Source: Sphingobacteriales bacterium (GTDB lineage: Bacteria > Bacteroidota > Bacteroidia > Sphingobacteriales > Sphingobacteriaceae). Taken from it: a DNA stretch of 34,145 nt. Below, piece after piece: positions 5,007 to 34,145 of this stretch; position 1 is the stretch's first letter; every line of letters starts with the position of its first letter. The notes under the pieces were generated by a model. It worked only from the letters and a program-made list of their open reading frames with translations, was not told where the DNA came from and did no database searches. A program made the position numbers and the translations under genes. Location of the stretch: the NCBI GenBank assembly GCA_013298995.1, contig JAAFJW010000017.1, forward strand, positions 1-34,145, read 5' to 3'.

Positions 5007-6086
5007 ATGAGTTTAAAAGATTTTAAAGGTGTTGTAACCGGAAACCAAGTTCAAGACTTATTTGCCATTGCTAAAAAGCATCAATTTGCCTTACCCGCAG
5101 TAAATGTAACGGGTACCAATACCATTAATGCAGTAATGGAAACTGCAAAGGCGGTTAACTCGCCTGTAATTATACAGTTATCAAACGGTGGAGCCCAGTT
5201 TTATGCCGGAAAATCTTTAGATAACAGCAAGCTACAAGCCTGTATATTGGGTGGCGTATCGGCCGCACAGCATGTACATTTACTAGCCGAAAGCTATGGC
5301 GTAGCCGTAATATTACATACCGACCATTGTGCTAAAAAATTATTGCCTTGGTTAGACGGTTTATTAGATGCTGGCGAAAAGTTTTTTGCGCAACATGGCA
5401 AACCCTTGTTTTCGTCGCACATGATTGACCTTTCGGAAGAGCCTTTGGAAGAAAATATAGAAATATGTAAAACTTACCTTGAGCGTATGAGTAAAATGGG
5501 CATGACTTTAGAAATAGAACTAGGTGTAACTGGTGGCGAAGAAGATGGGGTAGATAACTCGGATGTGGACTCATCAAAACTATATACCCAGCCCGAAGAA
5601 GTATCGTACGCTTACGAAGAGTTAAGCAAAATAAGCCCCCGTTTTACCATTGCCGCCGCTTTTGGCAACGTACATGGGGTGTATAAACCTGGTAATGTAA
5701 AGCTACAACCTGTAATTTTGCACAATTCACAGGAGTTTGTAAAAGCTAAATTTGGCTTAACAGATGATAAACCTATCGATTTTGTTTTCCATGGTGGCTC
5801 GGGCTCATCGCAAGAAGAAATACGTGAGGCTATATCGTACGGAGCAATAAAAATGAATATTGATACCGATATGCAATGGGCATTTTGGGAAGGTATTTTA
5901 GATTATTACACCAGTAAAGAAGCCTACTTGCAGGCGCAAATAGGTAACCCTGATGGTGATGACTCGCCCAATAAAAAATATTACGACCCTCGTGTATGGT
6001 TACGCAAAGGCGAAGAGCAGTTTGTAAAACGCTTAACCGCTGCATTTGACGATTTGAACTGTATAAATGCCAGTGAGTTACTATAA
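5007..6086 (+). CDS. fbaA: Class II fructose-bisphosphate aldolase
   Basis: The 359-residue protein has the same length as the E. coli-type class IIA enzyme. It cleaves fructose-1,6-bisphosphate to DHAP and glyceraldehyde-3-phosphate in glycolysis and runs in reverse for gluconeogenesis. Visible motifs are the zinc/catalytic segment ILHTDHCAKK (about residues 102-111), the Glu-containing LEIELGVTGGEEDGVDN segment (about 172-188), the FGNVHGVYKPGNVKL zinc-His segment (about 225-240), the phosphate-binding HGGSGSS near 262, and NIDTDMQWAFW near 287. These together distinguish it from tagatose-bisphosphate aldolases. It is monocistronic, with a terminator 24 bases after the stop. Confidence 0.96.
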   Translation: MSLKDFKGVVTGNQVQDLFAIAKKHQFALPAVNVTGTNTINAVMETAKAVNSPVIIQLSNGGAQFYAGKSLDNSKLQACILGGVSAAQHVHLLAESYGVAVILHTDHCAKKLLPWLDGLLDAGEKFFAQHGKPLFSSHMIDLSEEPLEENIEICKTYLERMSKMGMTLEIELGVTGGEEDGVDNSDVDSSKLYTQPEEVSYAYEELSKISPRFTIAAAFGNVHGVYKPGNVKLQPVILHNSQEFVKAKFGLTDDKPIDFVFHGGSGSSQEEIREAISYGAIKMNIDTDMQWAFWEGILDYYTSKEAYLQAQIGNPDGDDSPNKKYYDPRVWLRKGEEQFVKRLTAAFDDLNCINASELL

Positions 6087-24160: not shown

Positions 24161-25507
24161 ATGCCCAATAGTTTCGAGAGTTTTAGTTTTAACAAACAAA
24201 TATTAAACGCCATACAGGATGCAGGTTATACCCAACCTACGCCCATACAACAAAAAGCCATTCCGTTAATTATGAACGGGCAAGATATACTGGGCATAGC
24301 GCAAACGGGTACAGGCAAAACAGCTGCTTATATTTTGCCTATGCTTATGAAACTAAAATATGCACAAGGCTGCGATGTGCGTGGTTTAATCATTGCGCCC
24401 ACCCGCGAACTGGCCATGCAAATACACCAAAACGCAGTTGATTATGCCAAATATACCGACCTTAGAATACAAGTTATTTTTGGTGGCTTGGGGCCAAAGC
24501 GGCAAATTGAAGCACTAAGTACAGGTCTGGATATTTTAATTGCTACACCTGGCAGGTTTATGGATTTGTATTTGGAGGGTTATTTAGTAACTAAAAAAAT
24601 ACAAGTTTTGGTACTGGATGAAGCCGATAAAATGATGGACATGGGCTTTATGCCCCAAATAAATAAGATTTTAGAAATTATACCAAAAAAGCGGCAAAAT
24701 ATGCTTTTTTCGGCTACCATGAGCCAGCGTATAGAAAAACTAGCCGAAAACTTTTTGCTGTGGCCAACCAAAATTGAGGTTACACCACAAGCCACCCCAG
24801 CCGATACTGTAACGCAAGCTTTATATTTTGTACCCAACTTTAAAACCAAAATTAACCTGCTTAAACATTTTGTAGAAAACGATGCAGAAGTAGCAAAGCT
24901 GATAGTTTTTTGCCGCTCGCGTAGCAATGCCGAAAACGTGTATAAATTTTTATTGCGCCGTTTTAACGATAAACACGTAAAAGTATTACATGCCAACAAA
25001 GGGCAAAATACCCGCATAAACGCTATAAACGCTTTTAAAAACGATGAAGTTAGGATTTTGGTTGCCACCGATGTTGCCGCCCGAGGCATTGATGTAAGCA
25101 ACGTAAGCCATGTAATAAATTTTGATGTACCCATAATTTACGAAGATTATGTACACCGCATAGGCCGTACAGGTAGGGCATTAAACACTGGCATAGCCAT
25201 TACATTTTGCAACCCTGCCGAAAACTATTTTATCAATAAAATAGAAAAACTGATTAAACAAACCATCCCTATAAGCCCAATACCCAAAACGGTTTTTATT
25301 GAAGAAACGCCTTACGAAGAAAAACAAACCATTGACCGTGAAATAGATAACCAAAAAAAGAAAGAAAACCCCGATTTTAAAGGTGCATTTCACGAAAAAA
25401 AACTAAGCAACCAAAAAGGCGATGTAAAGAAAAGTAACAAACCCAAAGCCTTTAGCGGTAAAGGTAAAACGGTTGGTAATTATAAAAAAAATGCTAAAAA
25501 ATATTAA
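24161..25507 (+). CDS. DEAD-box RNA helicase, RhlE type
   Basis: A 448-residue SF2 helicase. Q motif (SFESFSF...GYTQPTPIQ), motif I AQTGTGKT (47-54), Ia PTRELAMQ, Ib TPGRF, II DEAD (about 152-155), III SAT, then domain 2 with VFCRSR (IV), ATDVAARGIDV (V) and HRIGRTGRA (VI). A basic, low-complexity C-tail (KKENPDFKGAFHEKK...GKGKTVGNYKKNAKKY) probably binds RNA. It unwinds short RNA duplexes in ribosome assembly or mRNA turnover. The next gene starts 17 bases inside its 3' end. Confidence 0.93.
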   Translation: MPNSFESFSFNKQILNAIQDAGYTQPTPIQQKAIPLIMNGQDILGIAQTGTGKTAAYILPMLMKLKYAQGCDVRGLIIAPTRELAMQIHQNAVDYAKYTDLRIQVIFGGLGPKRQIEALSTGLDILIATPGRFMDLYLEGYLVTKKIQVLVLDEADKMMDMGFMPQINKILEIIPKKRQNMLFSATMSQRIEKLAENFLLWPTKIEVTPQATPADTVTQALYFVPNFKTKINLLKHFVENDAEVAKLIVFCRSRSNAENVYKFLLRRFNDKHVKVLHANKGQNTRINAINAFKNDEVRILVATDVAARGIDVSNVSHVINFDVPIIYEDYVHRIGRTGRALNTGIAITFCNPAENYFINKIEKLIKQTIPISPIPKTVFIEETPYEEKQTIDREIDNQKKKENPDFKGAFHEKKLSNQKGDVKKSNKPKAFSGKGKTVGNYKKNAKKY

Positions 25508-25754
25508 ACTAACGCCACTTTCAGTGGTAATTGCGGGCTGCATTACCTACAGCTTTTTCTGTTTATTAGGTTACCAAAAAAACCAAGTTATTAGCAATTT
25601 TGCTGGCTTTGGTTATTCGCTAGCCTTGGCATTTGTACTTTTTATAACCGATTTGCTGTTTCGTAAATTTATAGCCAACAAAAAACAACTTTGGATAACC
25701 GAGGCATCGTTTATTCTACTAATTTTTACCCTAATTATTATTTTTAACAAATGA
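25491..25754 (+). CDS. Small membrane protein between helicase gene and gldC
   Basis: An 87-residue protein from the ATG at 25491 (MLKNIKLTPLSVVIAGCITYSFF...) with three hydrophobic segments (about 9-27, 36-57, 66-84). No family is recognised. It overlaps the helicase 3' end by 17 bases and its TGA overlaps the gldC ATG (ATGA), so it belongs to the helicase-gldC transcript. A TTG at 25473 would extend it six residues. Confidence 0.6.
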   Translation: MLKNIKLTPLSVVIAGCITYSFFCLLGYQKNQVISNFAGFGYSLALAFVLFITDLLFRKFIANKKQLWITEASFILLIFTLIIIFNK

Positions 25755-26092
25755 AAAAAGCCGAAATTAAACTAACCATTGAGTTAGATGATAGCAATGT
25801 ACCCGAAAACATCACTTGGGAATCTACCGACCACGAGGGCGAGGAAGCCCTAGCCGTAAAATCAATGATGCTTGCCCTGTGGGACCATAATTTTAAAAAC
25901 AGCTTACGTATAGATTTATGGACAAAAGATATGCCTGTAGATGAAATGAAACGCTTTTTTTACGAAACCCTACAAACCATGGGCGATAGTTTTTTAAGAG
26001 CCACGGGCGAAGAAGCCATTGTTGGCGATTTAAGAGATTATTGCGCACATTTTGCGGAGAAGATGGGGATTACGGAGAAGGGAGCGGGGTAG
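25751..26092 (+). CDS. gldC: Gliding motility protein GldC
   Basis: The 113-residue protein matches GldC in length and sequence (MKKAEIKLTIELDDSNVPENITWES, ALAVKSMMLALWDH, LRIDLWTKDMPVDEMKRFFYETLQTMGDSFLRATGEEAI, DLRDYCAHFAEKMGI). GldC is found in gliding and many non-gliding Bacteroidota and is accessory to gliding/T9SS in Flavobacterium; on its own it does not prove motility. It is the last recognisable core gene before the accessory island. Confidence 0.92.
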   Translation: MKKAEIKLTIELDDSNVPENITWESTDHEGEEALAVKSMMLALWDHNFKNSLRIDLWTKDMPVDEMKRFFYETLQTMGDSFLRATGEEAIVGDLRDYCAHFAEKMGITEKGAG

Positions 26093-26212
26093 GAATGTGT
26101 GTGTATTTGAGGGTTACAAGCAAGTGTAGGACGACCGCAAACCGACCAACAAACTGACAAGAAGCAGAATTTAAAATCGTAACTTTACGACCCAAACGAA
26201 TAGGAATATAAA

Positions 26213-28234
26213 ATGAAAAACTGGACACTAGAAGACAACGTGAATGATTGGGTAAAAGCCGAATTTGCAAGAATAAAACAAACCAATTATACTGTTGAAT
26301 CATCAATGTCTGCCTTTCTTAAAGAAGCAATTCAAAAAGGAGTTGTATTAAAAAGACTTTCATTAGAAGAATCTGGAGAAAAAGGCAAATCGTGGAAACC
26401 CGATTTTGAATTAGAAACTTTTGATATTCCTGTATTAATAGAAAATAAATTAGGTATCAATAAATTATCGGCAACCAATGGCGACAAGCTTAAAAACGAT
26501 ATTAAATCCGTTCAAAACTTTGCTGTAAACGGTGCCATTCATTACGCACAATGTGCCATAATGAGTAAAAAATATACAGAGGCAATTGCAATAGGTATAT
26601 CAGGCGATAATACAACCAATGTAACCATACGAGTTTATTACGTTTTTGGTGCAACAGACGAAACATATAAATTAGTAGAATCTTACACTACGTTAGATTT
26701 TTTGGAATCCAAAAAATCATTTGAAGAATTTTACAAAGTAGCAACGCTAACAGAAGACGAAAAACATAAAATCTTAATTGATTCGCAAGCCAAATTACAA
26801 GAATATGCGAAAAAATTAAATAAATTAATGCACAATCACGCCATAACAGCACCACAAAGAGTGTTGTATGTTTCAGGTATGCTTTTGGCAATGCAAGACC
26901 TTGCAGATATTAAAAAAGGTTTAGTTCCAGATGATTTAAAAGGTATAAATCTTGATAATCAACGTGATGGCGACACAATTGTTAACCAAATTGAAAATTA
27001 CCTTACTTTAAAGGAGATACCACAAGACAAAAAAAATCTTATGATGGCATCTTTTAAGGAAATAAACAAAGATACCGACCGTGATAAAAAAATAGAATTA
27101 GACACCATTATTGGTAAATTATTACCCGATTTGGCAAGTGTAAACAAACAAATTTTTACTTACATCTACGAAAACATTTTTTTATCTATCGACTCCATGA
27201 GTGGGCATTTAGATATTATGGGAGAGATGTATTCGGAGTTTTTAAAATATGCACTGGGCGATGGCAAAGAAATTGGAATAGTTTTAACACCGCCTTACAT
27301 TACCAAAATGATGACCCAAATTTTAGAAGTTGATGAAAACTCTAAAGTGATGGATTTGGCAACTGGTTCGGCAGGTTTCTTAATCTCTTCTATGCAATTA
27401 ATGATAGAATATGCGGAAGAGAAGTTTGGAAAAAAAACAGAAAAAGCATTAGAAAAAATTGAACACATAAAAAAGCATCAATTATTAGGAGTTGAGTTAG
27501 ACGCACAAATGTTTACACTGGCATCAACAAATATGATTTTGCGAGGAGATGGTTCGAGCAATATCCGTAAAGGTTCATCTTTTAAAGAACCTGCCAACCT
27601 TTACAAAACATTTAACGCCGATAAATTATTACTAAACCCTCCTTTTAGCTTTAAAGAAAACGGAATGCCGTTTATTTTATTCGGTCTTAAAAATATGCAA
27701 ATTGGCGGCAAAGCCGCCATTATCATTCAAGATTCGGCAGGTAATGGTCGTGGTGTTGAAAGTTGCACAGCTATTTTAGCTCAAAATCAATTAATAGCTA
27801 GTATAAAAATGCCAATAGATTTGTTTCAACCTATGGCAGGTGTGCAAACCTCTATTTATGTGGTAGAACGTACCGGTAAAGCACACGATTACAAAAAACA
27901 AGTTAAGTTTATAGATTTTAGAAACGATGGGTACAAACGCACAAAACGTGGTATTATTGAAATTGACAATCCCGTACAACGCTACACCGACATTATAGAA
28001 ATTTATAAAAATGGAGCAACTGCAAATGTTTCAAGTACTTTATGGAACTTGAAACAAATTGTTGCAATGAGTGTAATAACCAATAAAGGAAACGATTGGA
28101 ACTATGACCAGTATCAAAAAACAGATACTAAACCCACTTTACAAGATTTCAAAAAAACAGTTGGCGACTATCTCGCTTGGGAAGTTTCAAACATTCTTAA
28201 ACAACAAACCCAGGACGATAGCTTGGGAAAGTAG
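26213..28234 (+). CDS. Fused nuclease - N6-adenine methyltransferase (BcgI-A-like type IIB/IIG restriction-modification subunit)
   Basis: A 673-residue protein. An N-terminal domain (about 1-180) has a PD-(D/E)xK-like pattern: P63-D64 in WKPDFELE and E77-N78-K79 in PVLIENKLG, followed by NFAVNGAIHYAQCAI and EAIAIGISG, as in HSDR_N-type nuclease folds. The HsdM-like part follows, with a helical domain (about 185-350), GIVLTPPYITKMM (355-367), SAM motif I DLATGSAGFL (381-390), the LLGVELD acidic motif (424-430), and catalytic motif IV NPPF (475-478), typical of gamma-class m6A methyltransferases. One polypeptide would methylate and cut, and the next gene supplies specificity. No separate hsdR is present. 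Size and domain order resemble the A subunit of BcgI, which cuts on both sides of its site. Whether the nuclease is active is inference. Confidence 0.85.
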   Translation: MKNWTLEDNVNDWVKAEFARIKQTNYTVESSMSAFLKEAIQKGVVLKRLSLEESGEKGKSWKPDFELETFDIPVLIENKLGINKLSATNGDKLKNDIKSVQNFAVNGAIHYAQCAIMSKKYTEAIAIGISGDNTTNVTIRVYYVFGATDETYKLVESYTTLDFLESKKSFEEFYKVATLTEDEKHKILIDSQAKLQEYAKKLNKLMHNHAITAPQRVLYVSGMLLAMQDLADIKKGLVPDDLKGINLDNQRDGDTIVNQIENYLTLKEIPQDKKNLMMASFKEINKDTDRDKKIELDTIIGKLLPDLASVNKQIFTYIYENIFLSIDSMSGHLDIMGEMYSEFLKYALGDGKEIGIVLTPPYITKMMTQILEVDENSKVMDLATGSAGFLISSMQLMIEYAEEKFGKKTEKALEKIEHIKKHQLLGVELDAQMFTLASTNMILRGDGSSNIRKGSSFKEPANLYKTFNADKLLLNPPFSFKENGMPFILFGLKNMQIGGKAAIIIQDSAGNGRGVESCTAILAQNQLIASIKMPIDLFQPMAGVQTSIYVVERTGKAHDYKKQVKFIDFRNDGYKRTKRGIIEIDNPVQRYTDIIEIYKNGATANVSSTLWNLKQIVAMSVITNKGNDWNYDQYQKTDTKPTLQDFKKTVGDYLAWEVSNILKQQTQDDSLGK

Positions 28235-28254
28235 ATTCCCTACTCAACGAAAAA

Positions 28255-29376
28255 TTGAAAAAAGTTGAGTGGGGAGAATTTAAAGTTGGCGAATTATTTA
28301 CAATAAGTACATCCGAAAAAAGATTCGATGCAAACAAAGTGAAAGTTTTAGAAAATGGAAATTTTCCTTATGTTGTGAGAACAGGCTTAAATAATGGTAT
28401 AAAAGGATTTATAAATGAAGATGAACAATTCTTGAATGAAGGAAATACAATTTCTTTTGGTCAAGATACTGCAACAATGTTTTACCAAGAACAACCTTAT
28501 TTCACTGGCGATAAGATTAAAATAGTAAAATCAAAAGATAAAAGATTTAATAAGGGTAATGCTCAATTCTTTATTTTGTCAATGAATAAATCTTTTAGTT
28601 CATTTTCTTGGGGAAGTTCAAGTTTTAATGTAAAAATAATTGAAAATCAAAAAATCCAACTTCCAACAAAAAAAGGAAAAATAGATTATGAATTTATGGA
28701 AAGCTTTATAGCTGAGCTGGAAGCTCAGCGTATAGCTGAGCTGGAAGCTCAGCGTATAGCTGAGCTGGAAGCTTTTTTATTAACTACTGGCTTAAAGGAC
28801 TATATTTTAACTGATGAAGAGAAAGAAGTTTTAGAGGATTTTGAGAACGGAAAAATTGTATTTACAGAATTTACTTTTACAAATATTTTTAATAAAATTC
28901 TTCAAGGTAGAAGACTAAAAAAAGAAGACCAAATTACAGGAGAAATTCCATTTGTGATGGCTGGGACAACAAATACTGGAGTAGCAAAATATATTTCAAA
29001 TCCAGTAGCAAAATTTCCTAAAAATTCAATTACAATAGACATTTTTGGTAATACTTTCTATCGCAACTATGATTTTGGTGCAGGCGATGACACAGGTGTA
29101 TATTGGGATAATGAAAAAAACTATTCTGAAAAAACAATGCTGTATCTAACTTCGTCAATGAGTAAATTAGTTCAAGGAAAGTTTGATTTTGGAAATAAAT
29201 TAAGAAGTTCTCAAAGTATAGATTTCAAAATTCAACTTCCTATCCACAACAACCAACCCAATTACGCCTTAATGGAAACTTTTATAACCGCCATTCAAAA
29301 AATGGTAATAAAGGACGTAGTACTATATGCCGATAGAAAAATAGAAACGACCAAAAGCGTGGCAAAAAAGAGCTAA
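28255..29376 (+). CDS. Two-TRD specificity subunit (HsdS / BcgI-B-like)
   Basis: A 373-residue protein starting at TTG 28255 (no in-frame ATG upstream before a stop at 28219). TRD1 covers about 3-148 (EFKVGELFTISTSE...IQLPTKKGKIDYEFMESFI). A central coiled region (152-185) is built from the repeat IAELEAQR x2 plus IAELEAF. TRD2 covers about 200-345 (EFTFTNIFNKILQGRRLKKED...IQLPIHNNQPNYALMETFI), and the C-terminal helix is ITAIQKMVIKDVVLYADRK. The two halves share the IQLP...NYALMETFI layout, so the subunit can bind a bipartite asymmetric site with a fixed spacer. It begins 20 bases after the methylase stop and is co-transcribed. Confidence 0.87.
   Translation: MKKVEWGEFKVGELFTISTSEKRFDANKVKVLENGNFPYVVRTGLNNGIKGFINEDEQFLNEGNTISFGQDTATMFYQEQPYFTGDKIKIVKSKDKRFNKGNAQFFILSMNKSFSSFSWGSSSFNVKIIENQKIQLPTKKGKIDYEFMESFIAELEAQRIAELEAQRIAELEAFLLTTGLKDYILTDEEKEVLEDFENGKIVFTEFTFTNIFNKILQGRRLKKEDQITGEIPFVMAGTTNTGVAKYISNPVAKFPKNSITIDIFGNTFYRNYDFGAGDDTGVYWDNEKNYSEKTMLYLTSSMSKLVQGKFDFGNKLRSSQSIDFKIQLPIHNNQPNYALMETFITAIQKMVIKDVVLYADRKIETTKSVAKKS
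28708..28773 (+). repeat. 24-nt in-frame tandem repeat with internal hairpin in hsdS
   Basis: There are 2.75 copies (28708-28731, 28732-28755, 28756-28773) of a 24-base unit encoding IAELEAQR. The complete copies are identical. Each unit contains GCTGAGCT-GGA-AGCTCAGC, an 8-bp perfect stem with a 3-base loop. It lies exactly between TRD1 and TRD2. Confidence 0.95.
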
Positions 29377-29398
29377 ATTTGTGAATTAATTATTAAAA

Positions 29399-30031
29399 AT
29401 GATAAAAGATGAACTTAAAAATATCATTCAAGGAAAGAGCCAAGTTGGCTACGGAGAACTTATCCAAACAATTGCCCTATACCTTAGAAGAAGCAAAGAA
29501 ACAGGTACTTTGGCTCAAGCAAAACAGCACAGCAAAAAACAAGAAACAGAGGAACTCATAAAATATATTAATACACACCAGCTTTGGGTGTGTGATATTA
29601 ATTTTGATGCCTTTATTTCTGAAGGAGCAGAGCAAAAAGTATTCGTAAAAGATACACAAAAAGTGCTAAAACTAAACGATAGCATCTATTATGAATTTTG
29701 GGAAGATTATTTTCATAATTTACTGCTAAACAATTACTTTTTTCCTGAAACCGTCTATAATTTAATAGGCTTTTATAAATCTCCCGATAATATTTTATAC
29801 GCCTTGGTAGAGCAAAAATATATAAAGGCAGACGAGCCTACAAATCTACAAGATGTAAAATATTTTTTAGAAAATAATGGTTTTGAATGCACCAAAAATA
29901 ACGATTATTATCACCCAGAATTAGGTATTATACTAGAGGATTTACACGATGAAAATGTATTAATCGCAAAAGGTATCTTATATTTTATTGATACTGTTTT
30001 TTATATTAAATCAGCTGTTTTTTGGCTATAA
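29399..30031 (+). CDS. Kinase-like protein of the polyvalent-protein kinase family
   Basis: A 210-residue protein. The N-terminal part (GELIQTIALYLRRSKETG...) leads into a kinase-like fold: AEQKVFVKDTQKVLKLND (ATP-lysine-like KVLK region near 80-95), LNNYFFPETVYNLIGFYKSPDNILYALVEQKYI, the catalytic-loop-like GIILEDLHDENVLIAKG (about 177-194, D and N spaced like HxDxxxxN) and the metal-loop-like LYFIDTVFYIK. Such domains occur in polyvalent proteins of phage and conjugative elements and as solo genes in accessory regions. Substrate and role are unknown. It follows hsdS by 22 bases, suggesting the same transcript, and it is followed by a duplicate of the hsdS tail. Confidence 0.7.
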   Translation: MIKDELKNIIQGKSQVGYGELIQTIALYLRRSKETGTLAQAKQHSKKQETEELIKYINTHQLWVCDINFDAFISEGAEQKVFVKDTQKVLKLNDSIYYEFWEDYFHNLLLNNYFFPETVYNLIGFYKSPDNILYALVEQKYIKADEPTNLQDVKYFLENNGFECTKNNDYYHPELGIILEDLHDENVLIAKGILYFIDTVFYIKSAVFWL

Positions 30032-30044
30032 TTAAAAAAAACAA

Positions 30045-30162
30045 TTAAATGAATTTTTATTACTGCCATATACAAATTTGTAATAAAAAAATGGTAATAA
30101 AAGAGGTCGTTTTATATGCCGATAAAAAGATAGAAGCAACCAAAAATGTAATCCAGAATTAA
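30045..30162 (+). pseudogene. Remnant copy of the hsdS 3' end
   Basis: From about 30049 to TAA at 30160-30162, the sequence aligns with the last ~100 bases of hsdS (29270-29376). MVIKEVVLYADKKIEATKNV (30091 on) matches the hsdS tail MVIKDVVLYADRKIETTKSV. Upstream, ITAI and a short indel-containing stretch also correspond. It has no TRD and no independent start of note, so it is the 3' end of an older or alternative hsdS allele left downstream of the kinase gene. Confidence 0.8.
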
Positions 30163-30195
30163 AAAGCGGTAAATGACGACAGAAAGAACACCAGC

Positions 30196-30330
30196 TTGTA
30201 ACAGCGGTTTGGCAAAAAAGCGGGTTCAGTGGTTAATTGAACATTCTACTTCGTATCAACATTTATGGTATGTTTACAGTTTAGTGCTCCGAAATCCGCT
30301 TCTTCGCAAAGCCCCAAACCGTTAGCAGTA
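30196..30330 (+). repeat. attC-like imperfect inverted repeat, element 1
   Basis: Left arm TAACAGCGGTTTGGC then AAAAAAGCGGG (30199-30224), right arm CCGCTTCTTCGC then AAAGCCCCAAACCGTTAGCAG (30296-30328). The arms pair imperfectly over about 20 bases. The 3' end is nearly identical to element 2. A promoter for the next gene lies just downstream. Confidence 0.75.
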
Positions 30331-30362
30331 AAGCAAGCAGACCTCAACAAAACAGCGTTTCA

Positions 30363-30393
30363 TTTGCAGACAGACAGAAAATGTGTAGCTTTG
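30363..30393 (+). promoter_or_regulatory. Consensus Bacteroidota promoter of the first PIN toxin gene
   Basis: TTTG (30363-30366), a 19-base spacer, then TAGCTTTG (30386-30393) is a full match to the TTTG-N19-TAnnTTTG consensus. The TTG start follows 23 bases after it. Confidence 0.75.
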
Positions 30394-30415
30394 AAAGCCA
30401 ATAATTCTATACAAT

Positions 30416-30883
30416 TTGAAACAAAGAATTTACATAGATACATCAGTAGTTGGAGGTAATTTTGACGAAGAATTTTCGGCAAATACAGCTCCTTTTTTTG
30501 ACAGAGTCAAGAATGGAGAAGTTATTATTTTAGTTTCTGAACTTTTAGAAGCCGAATTGTTGAGGGCACCAAATTTTGTTAGAGAATTACTTGCCGAAAT
30601 AGACGACAAAAATATTGAGAAAGTAAAACTTACAGAAGAAGCAAAAGAGCTTGCTGACAGATATATTGAAGCGAAAGTTGTTGGAAAGACAAGTAAAGCC
30701 GACTGCCAACATATTGCAATGGCAACACTAAACAAAGCAGATGTATTAGTAAGTTGGAATTTTAAACATATCGTAAATCTTGACAGAATAAGAGGTTATA
30801 ACGGAATAAACTATCAGTTTGGACATAATATGATAGAAATTAGAACACCAAAAGAAATAGAAAAGTATGGAACAGAAGAATAA
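30416..30883 (+). CDS. PIN-domain toxin (VapC-like ribonuclease)
   Basis: A 155-residue protein starting at TTG 30416 (MKQRIYIDTSVVGG). PIN-domain acidic residues are D8 in YIDTS, E42/E45/E47 in SELLEAELL, D96 in KTSKADCQHIAMA and D109 near NKADVLVSWNFKHI. Such proteins cut RNA (often tRNA) and are held in check by a cognate antitoxin. Here the usual upstream antitoxin is missing; instead a 52-residue gene overlaps its 3' end. It stands between two attC-like elements with its own consensus promoter. Confidence 0.85.
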   Translation: MKQRIYIDTSVVGGNFDEEFSANTAPFFDRVKNGEVIILVSELLEAELLRAPNFVRELLAEIDDKNIEKVKLTEEAKELADRYIEAKVVGKTSKADCQHIAMATLNKADVLVSWNFKHIVNLDRIRGYNGINYQFGHNMIEIRTPKEIEKYGTEE

Positions 30884-31025
30884 AAAAGCAGAAAAAAAAT
30901 TTGATGCAATAAAAGTGATGAGAGAAATTCGGGACAAAATAAGTGCTGAAATTATGAATATGACTTATGAGCAAGAAAGAGCATATTTAGACAAACTTTT
31001 AGCACAAGGACAGAAGACAAAATAA
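30867..31025 (+). CDS. Small 52-residue partner of the PIN toxin
   Basis: ATG at 30867 overlaps the PIN gene by 17 bases and the frame runs to TAA at 31023-31025. The product has a Lys-rich start (MEQKNKKAEKKFDAIKVMRE) and then a long amphipathic helix (IRDKISAEIMNMTYEQERAYLDKLLAQG). The helical, charged composition and coupling suggest the antitoxin of a toxin-first module. I do not recognise a named family with certainty. Confidence 0.7.
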   Translation: MEQKNKKAEKKFDAIKVMREIRDKISAEIMNMTYEQERAYLDKLLAQGQKTK

Positions 31026-31040
31026 AAGCACTACTGCACA

Positions 31041-31171
31041 CAAGGGTTTGGCAAAAGTGGAGCTTTTGTACTATCCTCATCAGTTGTGCTTTCTAAAATC
31101 TTTTGTACTAAATTTGAACTTTAGTACTTTTCCCCCCCCACCACCTTCGCCAAGCCCGAAACCGTTGGCAG
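31041..31171 (+). repeat. attC-like imperfect inverted repeat, element 2
   Basis: Left arm CAAGGGTTTGGCAAAAGTGG (31041-31060), right arm CCACCTTCGCCAAGCCCG (31141-31158) followed by AAACCGTTGGCAG. Its final 24 bases (31148-31171) match element 1 (30305-30328) at 21 positions. A C8 tract (31132-31139) lies just before the right arm. The central TTTGTACTA...TTTAGTACTTT is itself partly palindromic. Confidence 0.75.
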
Positions 31172-31439
31172 CAATTGTTCGACAGGTCAGTGCTGTAATT
31201 TGGGGGGTAACTTTTAGACATTGAATGACTGCCCATTTTTTGTTTATCTTAATAGGTTTTGTAGTTAATTTAAAACTTCGGTTCTTCGTTTTCTGATTTG
31301 TGTGGGTGGACAGTAATCCAATATCTTAACGGTTGACAGCGAACTAACGATAAAATCAAATCTAATAACAAGCTGGTAACGTATTGACATAAGGACCTTT
31401 TAAATTGACGTAAAATATCTAGTAAAAAACAATTGACAT
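31172..31439 (+). other. Gene-free stretch of the island
   Basis: No frame with a credible product was found here. The bases around 31338-31350 (AACGGTTGACAGCGAACTAAC) and 31370-31385 (AAGCTGGTAACGTATTG) echo the word pattern at other cassette borders (AGCTGGTAACAG, AGCTTGTAACAG), so it may be a decayed border. The gene at 31440 begins directly after it. Confidence 0.3.
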
Positions 31440-31988
31440 ATGAAAGATACGTTAAAAAAAATATATAGATTTTTATTTAAATATAATGAAGATGCAACAC
31501 CTAAACTCACGAAATTTCTAACTTATACATTTATGCCGTTGTTCTGCTTCTGTTGTTTTTATTTAACCTTTTTTTACCAAAAGCTATCTAATAGACAATT
31601 GCAAGAATTTAATCATGTTAGTGGAATAGTGACTTCAACCGAAAAAATATATAATGCTCCACATAAAAACGAACGACCTTCATACAATATTAAAATTGGC
31701 GTTGACAATTTTGAAGAGTTAATTTGCTTATATAGTGAATATCCACAATCAAAGGAGGACGAAAATAGAATTGTTGTTGGGGAAAAGATTGAAGCATACT
31801 ACGAAACCGAAAAGGGCGTAAACAATATTGTTCAAATTTCTATTCCTCAAAAAAAAATTTTGACTATGGAACAGACTAACGAACACTTTAAATTTTTAAG
31901 AAATTTTCTTTTCGGTGTAGGACTTATATTTACGACATGGTTCATATCAAGGGTATATAGATATAGAAAATATGGTGGACTATATTAA
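31440..31988 (+). CDS. Orphan two-TM membrane protein
   Basis: A 182-residue protein. TM1 at about 28-47 (TYTFMPLFCFCCFYLTFFYQ), a soluble beta-rich middle (HVSGIVTSTEKIYNAPHK...VVGEKIEAYYETEKG...) and TM2 at about 150-170 (FLRNFLFGVGLIFTTWFISRV). The middle resembles DUF3592-type domains in outline only. AT-rich, single-gene unit between repeat elements; function unknown. Confidence 0.65.
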   Translation: MKDTLKKIYRFLFKYNEDATPKLTKFLTYTFMPLFCFCCFYLTFFYQKLSNRQLQEFNHVSGIVTSTEKIYNAPHKNERPSYNIKIGVDNFEELICLYSEYPQSKEDENRIVVGEKIEAYYETEKGVNNIVQISIPQKKILTMEQTNEHFKFLRNFLFGVGLIFTTWFISRVYRYRKYGGLY

Positions 31989-32040
31989 TTGACAACGACT
32001 GACGATTATTTAATAATTTAAAAATGGGTAATACAGCAGC

Positions 32041-32153
32041 TGGTAACAGTACATTTGCAATAAACGGGGCTTCATGCCTAGCAGTCCCCCCGCTGTCGCA
32101 ACTTCAGCGTAGCGTAACTTGTAATGCCGTATAAGCAAAGTTTTCAACTTTGC
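32041..32153 (+). repeat. Cassette-border element 3 with hairpin
   Basis: AGCTGGTAACAG (32037-32048 region) precedes an imperfect inverted pair, TTGCAATAAACGGGG (32055-32069) and CCCCCGCTGTCGCAA (32087-32101). CTTCAGCGTAGCGTAACTTG follows, then the perfect hairpin GCAAAGTT-TTC-AACTTTGC (32135-32153). No T-run follows, so it is unlikely to be a simple terminator. Confidence 0.55.
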
Positions 32154-32216
32154 ATTATGACAATTATTAATGGCTAAACTTTTTTATAAGCGGATTAAAA
32201 ATCCTACGATATTGGC

Positions 32217-32237
32217 TTCAGGATTGCAAATCCTGAA
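32217..32237 (+). repeat. Perfect 9-bp hairpin
   Basis: TTCAGGATT-GCA-AATCCTGAA is a perfect stem with a 3-base loop, about 110 bases upstream of the antitoxin gene and downstream of element 3. A related GGATTAAAAATCC lies at 32191-32203. Confidence 0.6.
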
Positions 32238-32303
32238 AAGCGATGATTTATTTTACAACCTCAACAAAACTTTAACACACAACTTATATACGTTTAAAAA
32301 TTA

Positions 32304-32322
32304 TATATTTGTACGTACAAAT
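32304..32322 (+). promoter_or_regulatory. Promoter with overlapping 16-bp palindromic operator of the DUF6364-PIN module
   Basis: TATATTTG (32304-32311) is a -7 box match. ATTTGTACGTACAAAT (32307-32322) is a perfect 16-bp palindrome that covers its 3' half and the expected transcription start. The ATG is at 32330. The arrangement fits autorepression by the ribbon-helix-helix-type antitoxin. Confidence 0.65.
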
Positions 32323-32329
32323 TTTTATC

Positions 32330-32581
32330 ATGGATACCAAGCTAACTTTAAAACTTAATCAACAAATAATTGAGAAAGCAAAACAATATGCAGTTGATAA
32401 AAAACTAAGTTTATCACGCATAATTGAGAACTATCTCAATTCCCTTACGTCCGCAAATTCATTGGGTAATGAAATTGAAATTTCACCTTTTGTAAAAAGT
32501 CTTTCTTCGAAAATCGATATACCGAATGATTATGATTATAAACAAGAGCATAACAATTATTTAGACGAAAAACATAGGTGA
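32330..32581 (+). CDS. DUF6364-like ribbon-helix-helix antitoxin
   Basis: An 83-residue protein (MDTKLTLKLNQQIIEKAKQYAVDKKLSLSRIIENYLNSLT...). The beta strand TKLTLKL, helix IIEKAKQYAVDKK and helix SLSRIIENYLNSL are the ribbon-helix-helix pattern. The C-terminal tail (about 50-83, ISPFVKSLSSKIDIPNDYDYKQEHNNYLDEKHR) probably wraps the toxin. ATG 32330 is preferred over an upstream TTG that lies inside the operator. The TGA overlaps the PIN GTG by four bases. Confidence 0.85.
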   Translation: MDTKLTLKLNQQIIEKAKQYAVDKKLSLSRIIENYLNSLTSANSLGNEIEISPFVKSLSSKIDIPNDYDYKQEHNNYLDEKHR

Positions 32582-32988
32582 GTAGAATATTTTTAGACAC
32601 TAATGTTATATTAGATTTGTTAGCCCAACGCATTCCATTTTATGATTCGATTGCTAAGTTAGCCACCCTTGCCGACCAAAAACGACTAGTATTAGTTGCT
32701 TCTCCAATTTCGTTCACAACGGTTGATTTTGTATTAAATAAATTCGAATCATCAGAAGCAGTTTTATCCAAACTTAGAAAATTAAAGATTTTATGTGAGG
32801 TTTGTGTTGTAAATGAAGAAATTATTGAAAAGAGTTTAAATTCGGATTTTAAAGATTTTGAAGATGCTGTACAATATTTTAGTGCAATACAATCAGGGTG
32901 TACGGCTATCATAACTAGAAATGGGAAAGATTTTAAAAAATCTACCATTCCAATTATGACAGCTTACGAATACCTAAATAACATTTAA
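32578..32988 (+). CDS. PIN-domain toxin of the DUF6364 module
   Basis: A 136-residue protein from GTG 32578 (MSRIFLDTNVILDLLAQR). PIN acidic residues are D7 in FLDTNV, a D/E pair in KDFEDAVQYFSA and the ITRNGKDF motif near 113-120. It probably acts as a ribonuclease toxin neutralised by the preceding gene, with GTGA start/stop overlap ensuring coupled translation. It belongs to the PIN_3-like group common in Bacteroidota rather than the classical VapC clade (inference from motif spacing). Confidence 0.85.
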   Translation: MSRIFLDTNVILDLLAQRIPFYDSIAKLATLADQKRLVLVASPISFTTVDFVLNKFESSEAVLSKLRKLKILCEVCVVNEEIIEKSLNSDFKDFEDAVQYFSAIQSGCTAIITRNGKDFKKSTIPIMTAYEYLNNI

Positions 32989-32989
32989 G

Positions 32990-33008
32990 CCCCACACACT
33001 GTCGCAAG
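32990..33008 (+). repeat. Fragment of the element-3 type border
   Basis: CCCCACACACTGTCGCAAG directly after the PIN stop resembles the right arm of element 3 (CCCCCCGCTGTCGCAAC at 32086-32102). No left arm is present. It marks the right end of the island before the core gene at 33051. Confidence 0.4.
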
Positions 33009-33050
33009 TTTTTAGCGCACCATAAATGTGATGGGTTTTGTGAAAAGTGT

Positions 33051-33677
33051 TTAACTTTCTTTTACCCCCGAAAGGTGTTCTAAACTATTAAATACCTCAA
33101 TTTCAAATGTATTACCATCATAATTCAAAACATATAATGAGGTGTTTTGGTGCGGAAAATCATCCATACTGGACAAAGGTTTTTGTAACAACAAACACAA
33201 TAACAAGCGCATAGCCCTGCCATGCATGCATATTAAAACAGTTTCTTCATTAGCTTGCGCCAATATATGTTTTACCGCTATTTGTTGCCTTGCAAATACC
33301 TCATTGGGGCTTTCGCCGCCTTCGGTTTTTATATCAAAGTTACCCGCATTCCAATTTTCGATTAATAGCTCGAAATCGTGGCGTAATTGCGGGGTGCTTT
33401 TTTGGCCTTCGTATATACCCCAAGCAAGCTCATCTAGCCCTTCTAGCTGCTCCCAAGCTATGCCTTGGGCAATAAATTGTGCCACAGTTTGGTGGGTACG
33501 TTTTAGCTTCGAGGTGTATATTTTATCAAAAGCTACGTTGTGGAACATGGCAAAAAAAGCGTTGCTTTGCGCAATACCTGTTTGGTTTAAATCTGAGTTT
33601 ATTCCTCGGCCTTGCACAATGCCGTTTTTGTTTAAATCTGTTTCGCCGTGGCGTATAATGTAAAATATTTTTTTCAA
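33051..33677 (-). CDS. Histidine phosphatase family protein (phosphoglycerate-mutase-like)
   Basis: A 208-residue protein with the RHGET motif (YIIRHGETDLNKNGIVQGRG, catalytic His at about residue 10), the second core Arg in TSKLKRTHQT (about 56-65), the acid donor in DELAWGIYEG (about 82-91) and the second core His in CMHGRAMRLLL (about 151-160). Family members include phosphoglycerate mutases and alpha-ribazole phosphatase (CobC). The substrate cannot be fixed by eye. It starts 9 bases after the mqnE stop, so it is probably in the same transcript. Confidence 0.85.
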   Translation of the reverse strand: MKKIFYIIRHGETDLNKNGIVQGRGINSDLNQTGIAQSNAFFAMFHNVAFDKIYTSKLKRTHQTVAQFIAQGIAWEQLEGLDELAWGIYEGQKSTPQLRHDFELLIENWNAGNFDIKTEGGESPNEVFARQQIAVKHILAQANEETVLICMHGRAMRLLLCLLLQKPLSSMDDFPHQNTSLYVLNYDGNTFEIEVFNSLEHLSGVKES

Positions 33678-33686
33678 TGTTGTTAA

Positions 33687-34145
33687 TTAATTGTTTAAAA
33701 CTGGCAGGGCGTAGTATTGCGGTTTGGTATCATCCTCACTAAATTCAACATGCTCGTAATCAGTAATTATATTGTAAAGTGTATCTCGTTCCAAAGGTTT
33801 TTTACCTACATTTTTTATCAAATCAACCAATTGCTTGGTGCTTAATGCGGGCTGTTGTTCCTCGGCCCCAGCCATACTATAAATTTTTGTAGTATCATCA
33901 AGCGTACCGTCAATATCATCTACACCAAAATTAAGCGAAAGTTGCGCTGTGTTGCGACCTATCATGGCCCAATAGCTTTTTATATGGTCAAAATTATCTA
34001 AATAAATACGCGAAATGGCATAATTTCGTAAATCTTCTACCACGGTCGATTCCTTAATATGCGACATTTGGTTATCTTGGTTTCTGAATTTTAGTGGGAT
34101 AAAAGCCTGAAAACCTTGTGTTTCATCTTGTAAATTTCGTAATTG
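33687..34145 (-). CDS. mqnE: Aminofutalosine synthase MqnE, C-terminal part (5' end outside window)
   Basis: The frame is open to the window edge and gives 152 residues: LRNLQDETQGFQAFIPLKFR, NQMSHIKESTVVEDLRNYAISRIYL and NFDHIKSYWAMIGRNTAQLSLNFGVDDIDGT, ending in GKKPLERDTLYNIITDYEHVEF. This is the C-terminal domain of the radical-SAM aminofutalosine synthase; the DDIDGT segment favours MqnE over MqnC (cyclic dehypoxanthine futalosine synthase). The radical-SAM CxxxCxxC part lies beyond 34145. It implies menaquinone synthesis by the futalosine route. The ATG at 34065-34067 is internal. Confidence 0.85.
   Translation of the reverse strand, partial: QLRNLQDETQGFQAFIPLKFRNQDNQMSHIKESTVVEDLRNYAISRIYLDNFDHIKSYWAMIGRNTAQLSLNFGVDDIDGTLDDTTKIYSMAGAEEQQPALSTKQLVDLIKNVGKKPLERDTLYNIITDYEHVEFSEDDTKPQYYALPVLNN

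Follow-up and report, generated by a model that had tools for sequence, protein, structure and literature searches.

The window, by which we mean the whole 34,145 bp stretch of DNA analysed here, probably encodes a BcgI-like Type IIB system in which a tandem repeat acts as a length dial of the specificity subunit (S), and in which S is made by a −1 frameshift as an extension of the restriction-methylase subunit (RM~S). At slightly lower confidence, it is likely that throughout this Type IIB family the −1 frameshift gives RM and RM~S, setting a 2RM:1S composition, and that the S repeat sets site spacing. If this is true, the family uses slippage of the ribosome for composition and slippage of DNA for specificity. 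It would also stand between the split BcgI-type and the single-chain AloI-type enzymes. The RM and S genes, the junction signal, the repeat with its hairpins and the decayed S fragment of the window lie on the forward (+) strand.

The repeat occupies positions 28707–28773. Tandem Repeats Finder reported a period of 24 and 2.8 copies with 100% match (score 134); the runner-up array in the 34 kb window, other readings of 28707–28773 excluded, scored 57. The longest exact run at period 24 was 43 bases. At period 48, its own harmonic, the longest was 19 bases, and the remaining periods from 4 to 100 gave 12 bases or fewer. The 2.75 identical copies are in frame (I-A-E-L-E-A-Q-R) within the open reading frame 28255–29376 and encode IAELEAQR-IAELEAQR-IAELEA in the central helix of S. 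Each full unit has the form GCTGAGCT-GGA-AGCTCAGC, a perfect 8 bp stem with a 3 nt GGA loop. DNA folding and a motif scan placed these hairpins at 28711–28729 (unit 1) and 28735–28753 (unit 2). The unit folded at −8.7 kcal/mol (z −5.35), and none of 200 shuffles went as low. Among synonymous units, a stem of at least 8 bp would arise in 0.06% with the codon usage of the window and in 0.5% with uniform codons. Allowing up to three mismatches, the hairpin motif was found on both strands of the window at the two array sites alone (0.00 expected); allowing up to two, it occurred only in the array throughout the draft genome (G000; 2.78 Mb, 211 contigs). Thus the repeat, which a preliminary description had given as 2.75 identical in-frame copies with an 8 bp stem and 3-base loop, is confirmed, with Tandem Repeats Finder, folding and the reading frame in agreement.

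The same description took the gene to be a type I specificity gene. The gene upstream argues against this assignment. It runs from 26213 to 28234 and encodes a 673 aa RM subunit, identified by PADLOC, Pfam and motif positions. The protein matches the PADLOC model REase_MTase_IIG (PDLC03616; E 1.8e-210, 699 bits) over residues 1–666, as a fused Type IIB/IIG subunit with predicted nuclease activity. It matches Pfam N6_Mtase (2.6e-30) and has NPPF, a signature of N6-adenine methylases, at residue 475. The N-terminus contains a PD-(D/E)xK-like stretch, with PD at 63–64 and ENK at 77–79, which from motif knowledge we take to be a putative nuclease site. The S frame (28225–29376) is −1 relative to RM. 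It is recognised as Specificity_II by PADLOC and contains two stretches of Methylase_S (Pfam, E 2.2e-34). Pfam gives bounds for the first stretch alone, and the limits of the second target-recognition domain (TRD2), approximately 28855–29240, were read by eye from alignment A1. Judged by these signatures, the gene pair is a BcgI-like Type IIB/IIG RM+S system and not Type I, because nuclease and methylase are fused in the gene upstream. An EcoR124-type HsdS was rejected, the adjoining gene being a fused REase-MTase and not a separate HsdM. Moreover, EcoR124I and EcoR124II, of Type IC, have separate HsdR and HsdM and a 4-residue, 12 bp TAEL unit, whereas the unit here is 8 residues. Within 24161–34145 there was no candidate HsdR, that is, no open reading frame above 448 aa besides RM. 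BcgI and BsaXI, by comparison, also pair a fused RM with an S that has two TRDs, in the ratio 2RM:1S (PMC3874165, PMC4081073, PMC11997821). They differ in being described, in the parts of these sources available, with a separate S and with no mention of a frameshift.

Structural models of S agree with this assignment. The best Foldseek match was a Type I S subunit (1ydx, E 2.6e-13), and the 13 matches at E ≤ 0.001 included the S subunits of EcoR124I (7bst, 6.0e-6) and BsaXI (8w0p, 5.1e-5). Hence the Methylase_S pair, Specificity_II, the models and the fold search all describe a BcgI-like S with two TRDs and a central helix. In the window model the central helix spans residues 151–184 (34 residues), with the repeat at about 158–179. 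In the model of the S protein from Epilithonimonas tenax (locus L014), which has one unit fewer, the helix spans 149–174 (26 residues) and is therefore shorter by 8. At the level of these models, each IAELEAQR unit is shown to lengthen the central helix by 8 residues. The AlphaFold2 models are of middling quality (mean pLDDT 70.5 and 71.7) with TRD2 poorly modelled, and superposition on whole S structures was loose (rmsd 9–18 Å).

The expected consequence is a change in the DNA site. Each 24 bp unit would add 8 helix residues to S, so that the TRDs are moved apart and rotated. Gain or loss of a unit, by slipped mispairing or by recombination between the direct repeats, would then alter the spacer length in the bipartite site and keep the reading frame. 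Repeat number probably sets spacer length, and there are several published parallels. EcoR124 also has a repeat of variable number in its central helix, and a change in the number of TAEL repeats shifts the spacer from N6 to N7 (PMC3874165). A repeat change in NgoAV has the same effect, N6 to N7. In H. pylori Type I systems, going from 3 to 4 repeats changes the distance between methylated bases from 7 to 8 bp. The EcoR124-type dial of the preliminary description therefore stands as far as the array is a counterpart of TAEL whose whole-unit differences keep frame; the unit is of 8 residues and not 4. By the EcoR124 rule for 4-residue units the spacer should therefore change by about +2 bp per unit; this effect, like the rate of unit gain and loss, is inferred. 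For 8-residue Type IIB units, no spacer measurement was found in the portion of the literature searched.

H. pylori belongs to a different phylum from the source of the window. The closest parallel comes from its Type IIG RM+S systems, in which S carries 0–4 copies of a 24 bp unit between the TRDs (Furuta 2011, PMC3077401). That unit translates as LAELEQCR, near IAELEAQR, but its DNA differs from the unit in the window. Since a range of 0–4 copies is published there, our repeat belongs to an already known kind of dial. According to Furuta 2014, as far as the available text goes, motifs could not be assigned to the H. pylori Type IIG S subunits. Natural S genes that differ by one unit would make the proposition that one 8-residue unit equals a fixed Type IIB spacer change directly testable.

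Such genes exist: on the evidence of alleles from relatives, copy number varies between natural relatives by whole units. Genome surveys yielded few relatives. Hits to the S protein at E 1e-10, partial ones counted, occurred in 7 of 301 genomes of the family, and hits to the S alignment at E 1e-30 in 5 of 400 genomes of the order and 3 of 395 of the phylum; each of these three figures includes the own genome. The RM protein was present in 2 of 18 genomes of the genus and in 4 of 378 in the genus sample of G805. A pattern scan of viral contigs found no doubled unit. For array scoring, 21 duplicate or partial loci were skipped. The genome scan with RM gave ten loci, and the adjoining S genes of seven (L014–L017, L020–L022) have about 1.6–2.0 copies. 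Flavobacterium croceum (L013) has 2.8 copies and array DNA identical to that of the window. L018, with degenerate copies, and L019, with half an S, fell below the array score. There are three IAELEA motifs in the window and L013, and two in L014, which has nearly the window's unit.

It is improbable, in our estimate, that the array is a structural helix segment whose identical copies stem from one recent duplication, with a count fixed per lineage and no switch. That most of the ten S genes next to RM (seven) cluster at about 1.6–2.0 copies would suit such an origin. So would the match of window and L013, by which a count can be inherited instead of switching freely. Against a fixed count stand S genes from E. 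coli that are otherwise identical. Thus, the S genes of L039 and L059, both situated among phage genes, are equal at 1086 of 1086 aligned bases and are separated by a single 24 bp gap, in the array. The RM-S stretch of this allele was matched in 29 of 5426 genomes, 20 of them at ≥80% coverage. Two of the 20 had the three-unit length and 18, which share one count, were shorter by 24 bases (one of these 18 by one further base). For five of the 20 the bases themselves were inspected (two motifs in L039, L040 and L061; three in L058 and L059), and for the others the count comes from aligned length and alignment start. A second set of E. coli prophages shows three counts behind a single TRD1: one full unit in L064 and L065, two in L062 and three in L063, each plus a partial copy.

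One-unit differences were also found in phage and L. salivarius plasmid alleles. The proviral contigs L031 and L032 are 97.4% identical and differ at 30 of 1170 bases plus one unit. On the L. salivarius plasmids, the array of L042 is one unit longer than those of L041, L066 and L067, and L042 has another TRD1; the L. salivarius repeat motif was not found in L068 and L069. Finally, the first and last copies are more alike within a locus (mean identity 0.913) than between loci (0.765), with 12 of 5040 permutations of 7 loci as high. Eight loci were entered, L013 then being dropped as identical to the window, and the test was done without L017, L019, L022, L075, L009, L002, L007, L008 and the E. 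coli, plasmid and phage loci. Copies that are alike inside a locus and divergent between loci fit unit turnover. The count across relatives, a check proposed in the preliminary description for related strains, came out in favour of variation, all of it between genomes and in species other than the window's.

The four prophages L062–L065 have a second array, of an 8 bp unit (GGACTCGC), after the 24 bp array. The 8 bp unit is present in 6, 18, 16 and 16 copies in L062, L063, L064 and L065, alongside 2, 3, 1 and 1 full copies of the 24 bp unit. S is open across the 8 bp array in L062 and L063, and the frame is lost in L064 and L065. Another E. coli prophage (OkiPb01695; L037) has a G11 run at 5108–5118, after the central helix of S and before its TRD2, and the halves of S are in different frames. 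This is like HpyUM032XIII, a BcgI-like Type IIG enzyme in which a G12 tract in mid-S splits S and changes the motif (PMC4450513). The tract of HpyUM032XIII is a homopolymer switch, in contrast to the in-frame length dial described here.

The preliminary description had also proposed that slippage or stalling of the replication fork at the hairpins could add or drop units. That the hairpins themselves are the driving force, by stalling the fork, we regard as unlikely. Stems of at least 8 bp (8 or 9 bp) are found in 5 of 24 arrays, namely the window, L013, L014, L015 and L018, the last four all from Flavobacteriia. L015 has a different loop. In L018 both arms are changed with respect to the window, and 8 bp remain paired, which speaks for the hairpin. 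So does the restriction of the motif to the S gene, in the window's own genome and in the relatives that have it (four out of six). The synonymous chance of a stem of at least 8 bp is P 0.0008 for the window type; for the residues of L018 it is not rare (P 0.03), and L018 has degenerate copies despite its hairpin. The hairpins of the window, L013 and L014 can be explained by shared descent. Furthermore, L075 (6 bp) and L016 (3 bp) lack the hairpin, and one-unit differences also occur among the arrays of E. coli, L. salivarius and phages, whose stems, where measured, have 3–7 bp. Since arrays without the hairpin also vary, it is not necessary; it may aid slippage in the flavobacterial clade. 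We rejected an in-frame insertion of a genome-wide palindromic element, because the motif is confined to the array in its own genome and to S in the relatives that have it.

The second and less expected part of our reading concerns the start of S. Comparison of loci reveals a candidate signal at the RM/S junction, from which we infer that S is most likely made by −1 programmed ribosomal frameshifting. At the junction RM reads TTG GGA AAG TAG and S reads CTT GGG AAA GTA GAT. The candidate slippery heptamer G GGA AAG (28225–28231) conforms to X XXY YYZ, with GGA AAG in the RM frame and GGG AAA in the S frame, and both frames read L-G-K here. The RM stop codon TAG (28232–28234) follows directly. 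Five nt after the heptamer is a 12 bp stem-loop (28237–28275; arms 28237–28248 and 28264–28275). Its RNA fold was −19.9 kcal/mol (z −6.26), with 0 of 200 shuffles as low. The stem also exceeds coding constraint: 0 of 1000 synonymous recodings of the window fold as low, and across 15 loci between 0 and 9 of 1000 synonymous S-frame draws per locus fold as well. Rfam gave no match within 28100–28900 up to E 1.

The candidate signal recurs in the window (28225–28275) and at 19 other loci (L002, L007–L009, L013–L016, L018, L020, L021, L037–L039, L046, L050, L052, L055 and L075). GGGAAAG is present in 14 of 14 rows of alignment A3 and 14 of 15 rows of A4, with GGGAAAA in L052. The named rows of A4, from which L014 was left out as the same as L013, belong to Bacteroidota and Pseudomonadota. 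RM stops one codon later in L020 and L021 than in other rows. The stem always lies at the same distance; 97.9% of its cells are paired in A4 and 97.5% in A3, and slid controls drop to 34–52% paired. The A4 covariation score was reached by 1 of 500 shuffles. Pair 21–43 appears as C-G, U-A, U-G and G-C, and it is the only pair changed on both sides, a count reached by 300 of 500 shuffles on A4; hence covariation alone is modest. Controls on A3 were weaker (score reached by 14 of 500 shuffles, the both-sides-changed count by 134 of 500). Codon-position bias (7/13, 6/13 and 8/12 variable columns) gave no information on whether the S frame is coding at the junction and was set aside.

Of 100 related genomes, two (G000 and G040) contain the heptamer plus stem pattern, each time at the RM/S junction. 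The pattern misses L002, a second such system in the window's own genome, which has the heptamer and the stem minus one outer pair. The E. coli-type loci L037, L038, L046 and L050, which are outside A3 and A4, have A AAA AAG with another stem. Junction folds of L037 and L038 had z −3.26 and −3.41, and for either locus 2 of 200 shuffles went as low; the folds of L046 and L050 were computed without shuffled controls. Exceptions with their own S ATG are L017, L022, L041/L042 and L031/L032. In L031/L032 the heptamer is present, but with the ATG and no matching stem.

A slippery heptamer with a downstream hairpin is also the layout of a known E. coli frameshift, in the gene that we take to be dnaX. 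A AAA AAG is used efficiently for frameshifting in E. coli, and this is the form in L037, L038, L046 and L050. The case here differs from dnaX in that a restriction-methylase would be joined to a specificity subunit. Programmed −1 frameshifting by a slippery sequence plus downstream hairpin is reviewed for bacteria in PMC3711429, and the relevant parts of that survey name no RM/S pair. Among the titles listed in our literature searches none was on programmed frameshifting of RM/S, which does not prove novelty.

We propose that most ribosomes would stop at TAG and yield RM, and that a fraction would slip at G GGA AAG and yield the RM~S fusion. One RM with one RM~S would contain two RM parts and one S part, that is 2RM:1S, the composition reported for BcgI (PMC3874165, PMC4081073). 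An artificial M~S fusion of EcoKI is functional in vivo and requires extra M in vitro (PMC3510504). Free RM would supply the role of that extra M. A natural chain of related kind is found in Epilithonimonas xixisoli (L019, 5995–8676), where RM is in frame with the central helix and TRD2 only. This single-TRD chain of 893 aa suggests that RM~S-type fusions are tolerated.

A real frameshift would explain how RM and S are expressed when no start codon for S is conserved across loci, and possibly how 2:1 is set. In the window the S frame is open from one codon upstream of the heptamer, and the sole ATG, GTG or TTG of its first 37 codons is TTG 28255. Least probable of the alternatives, and quite unlikely, is an independent start of S at TTG 28255 or another codon, regulated by the stem-loop and translationally coupled to the RM stop as in EcoKI, whose coupled hsdM and hsdS genes share 1 nt (PMC3510504): an S-frame TTG does lie 14–17 codons upstream of the heptamer in L075, L009, L021 and L002, but the first ATG, GTG or TTG past the heptamer is at codon 20–47 in seven loci (L018, L075, L009, L020, L021, L039 and L052), L055 opens at the heptamer with no open codon upstream and none of the three codons in 70, and the heptamer is kept with the stem at constant distance. 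If instead S is made by frameshifting, annotation can mis-start or split such genes. In existing E. coli records the S start is placed inside TRD1 in L038 and L039; those of L040 and L059 break the gene up and label one part as partial.

Two further observations concern the exchange of parts around S. L013 and L020 differ from the window and L014 in carrying the TRD1 family of the window where TRD2 would be. This shift is like the domain movement described by Furuta 2011 (PMC3077401). Downstream of S, a conserved small gene follows in L013–L015, L018 and L019; it begins MASTSETGHAKN... in L013–L015 and has related starts in L018 and L019. In the window a Kinase-PolyVal gene (PF18762) takes its place, and the interval 29399–30156 holds this gene and then a decayed copy of an S C-terminus. 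The latter, at 30040–30156, is 54% identical to residues 338–377 and contains one stop. The arrangement resembles what the insertion of a cassette into an older S gene, or a swap with one, would leave.
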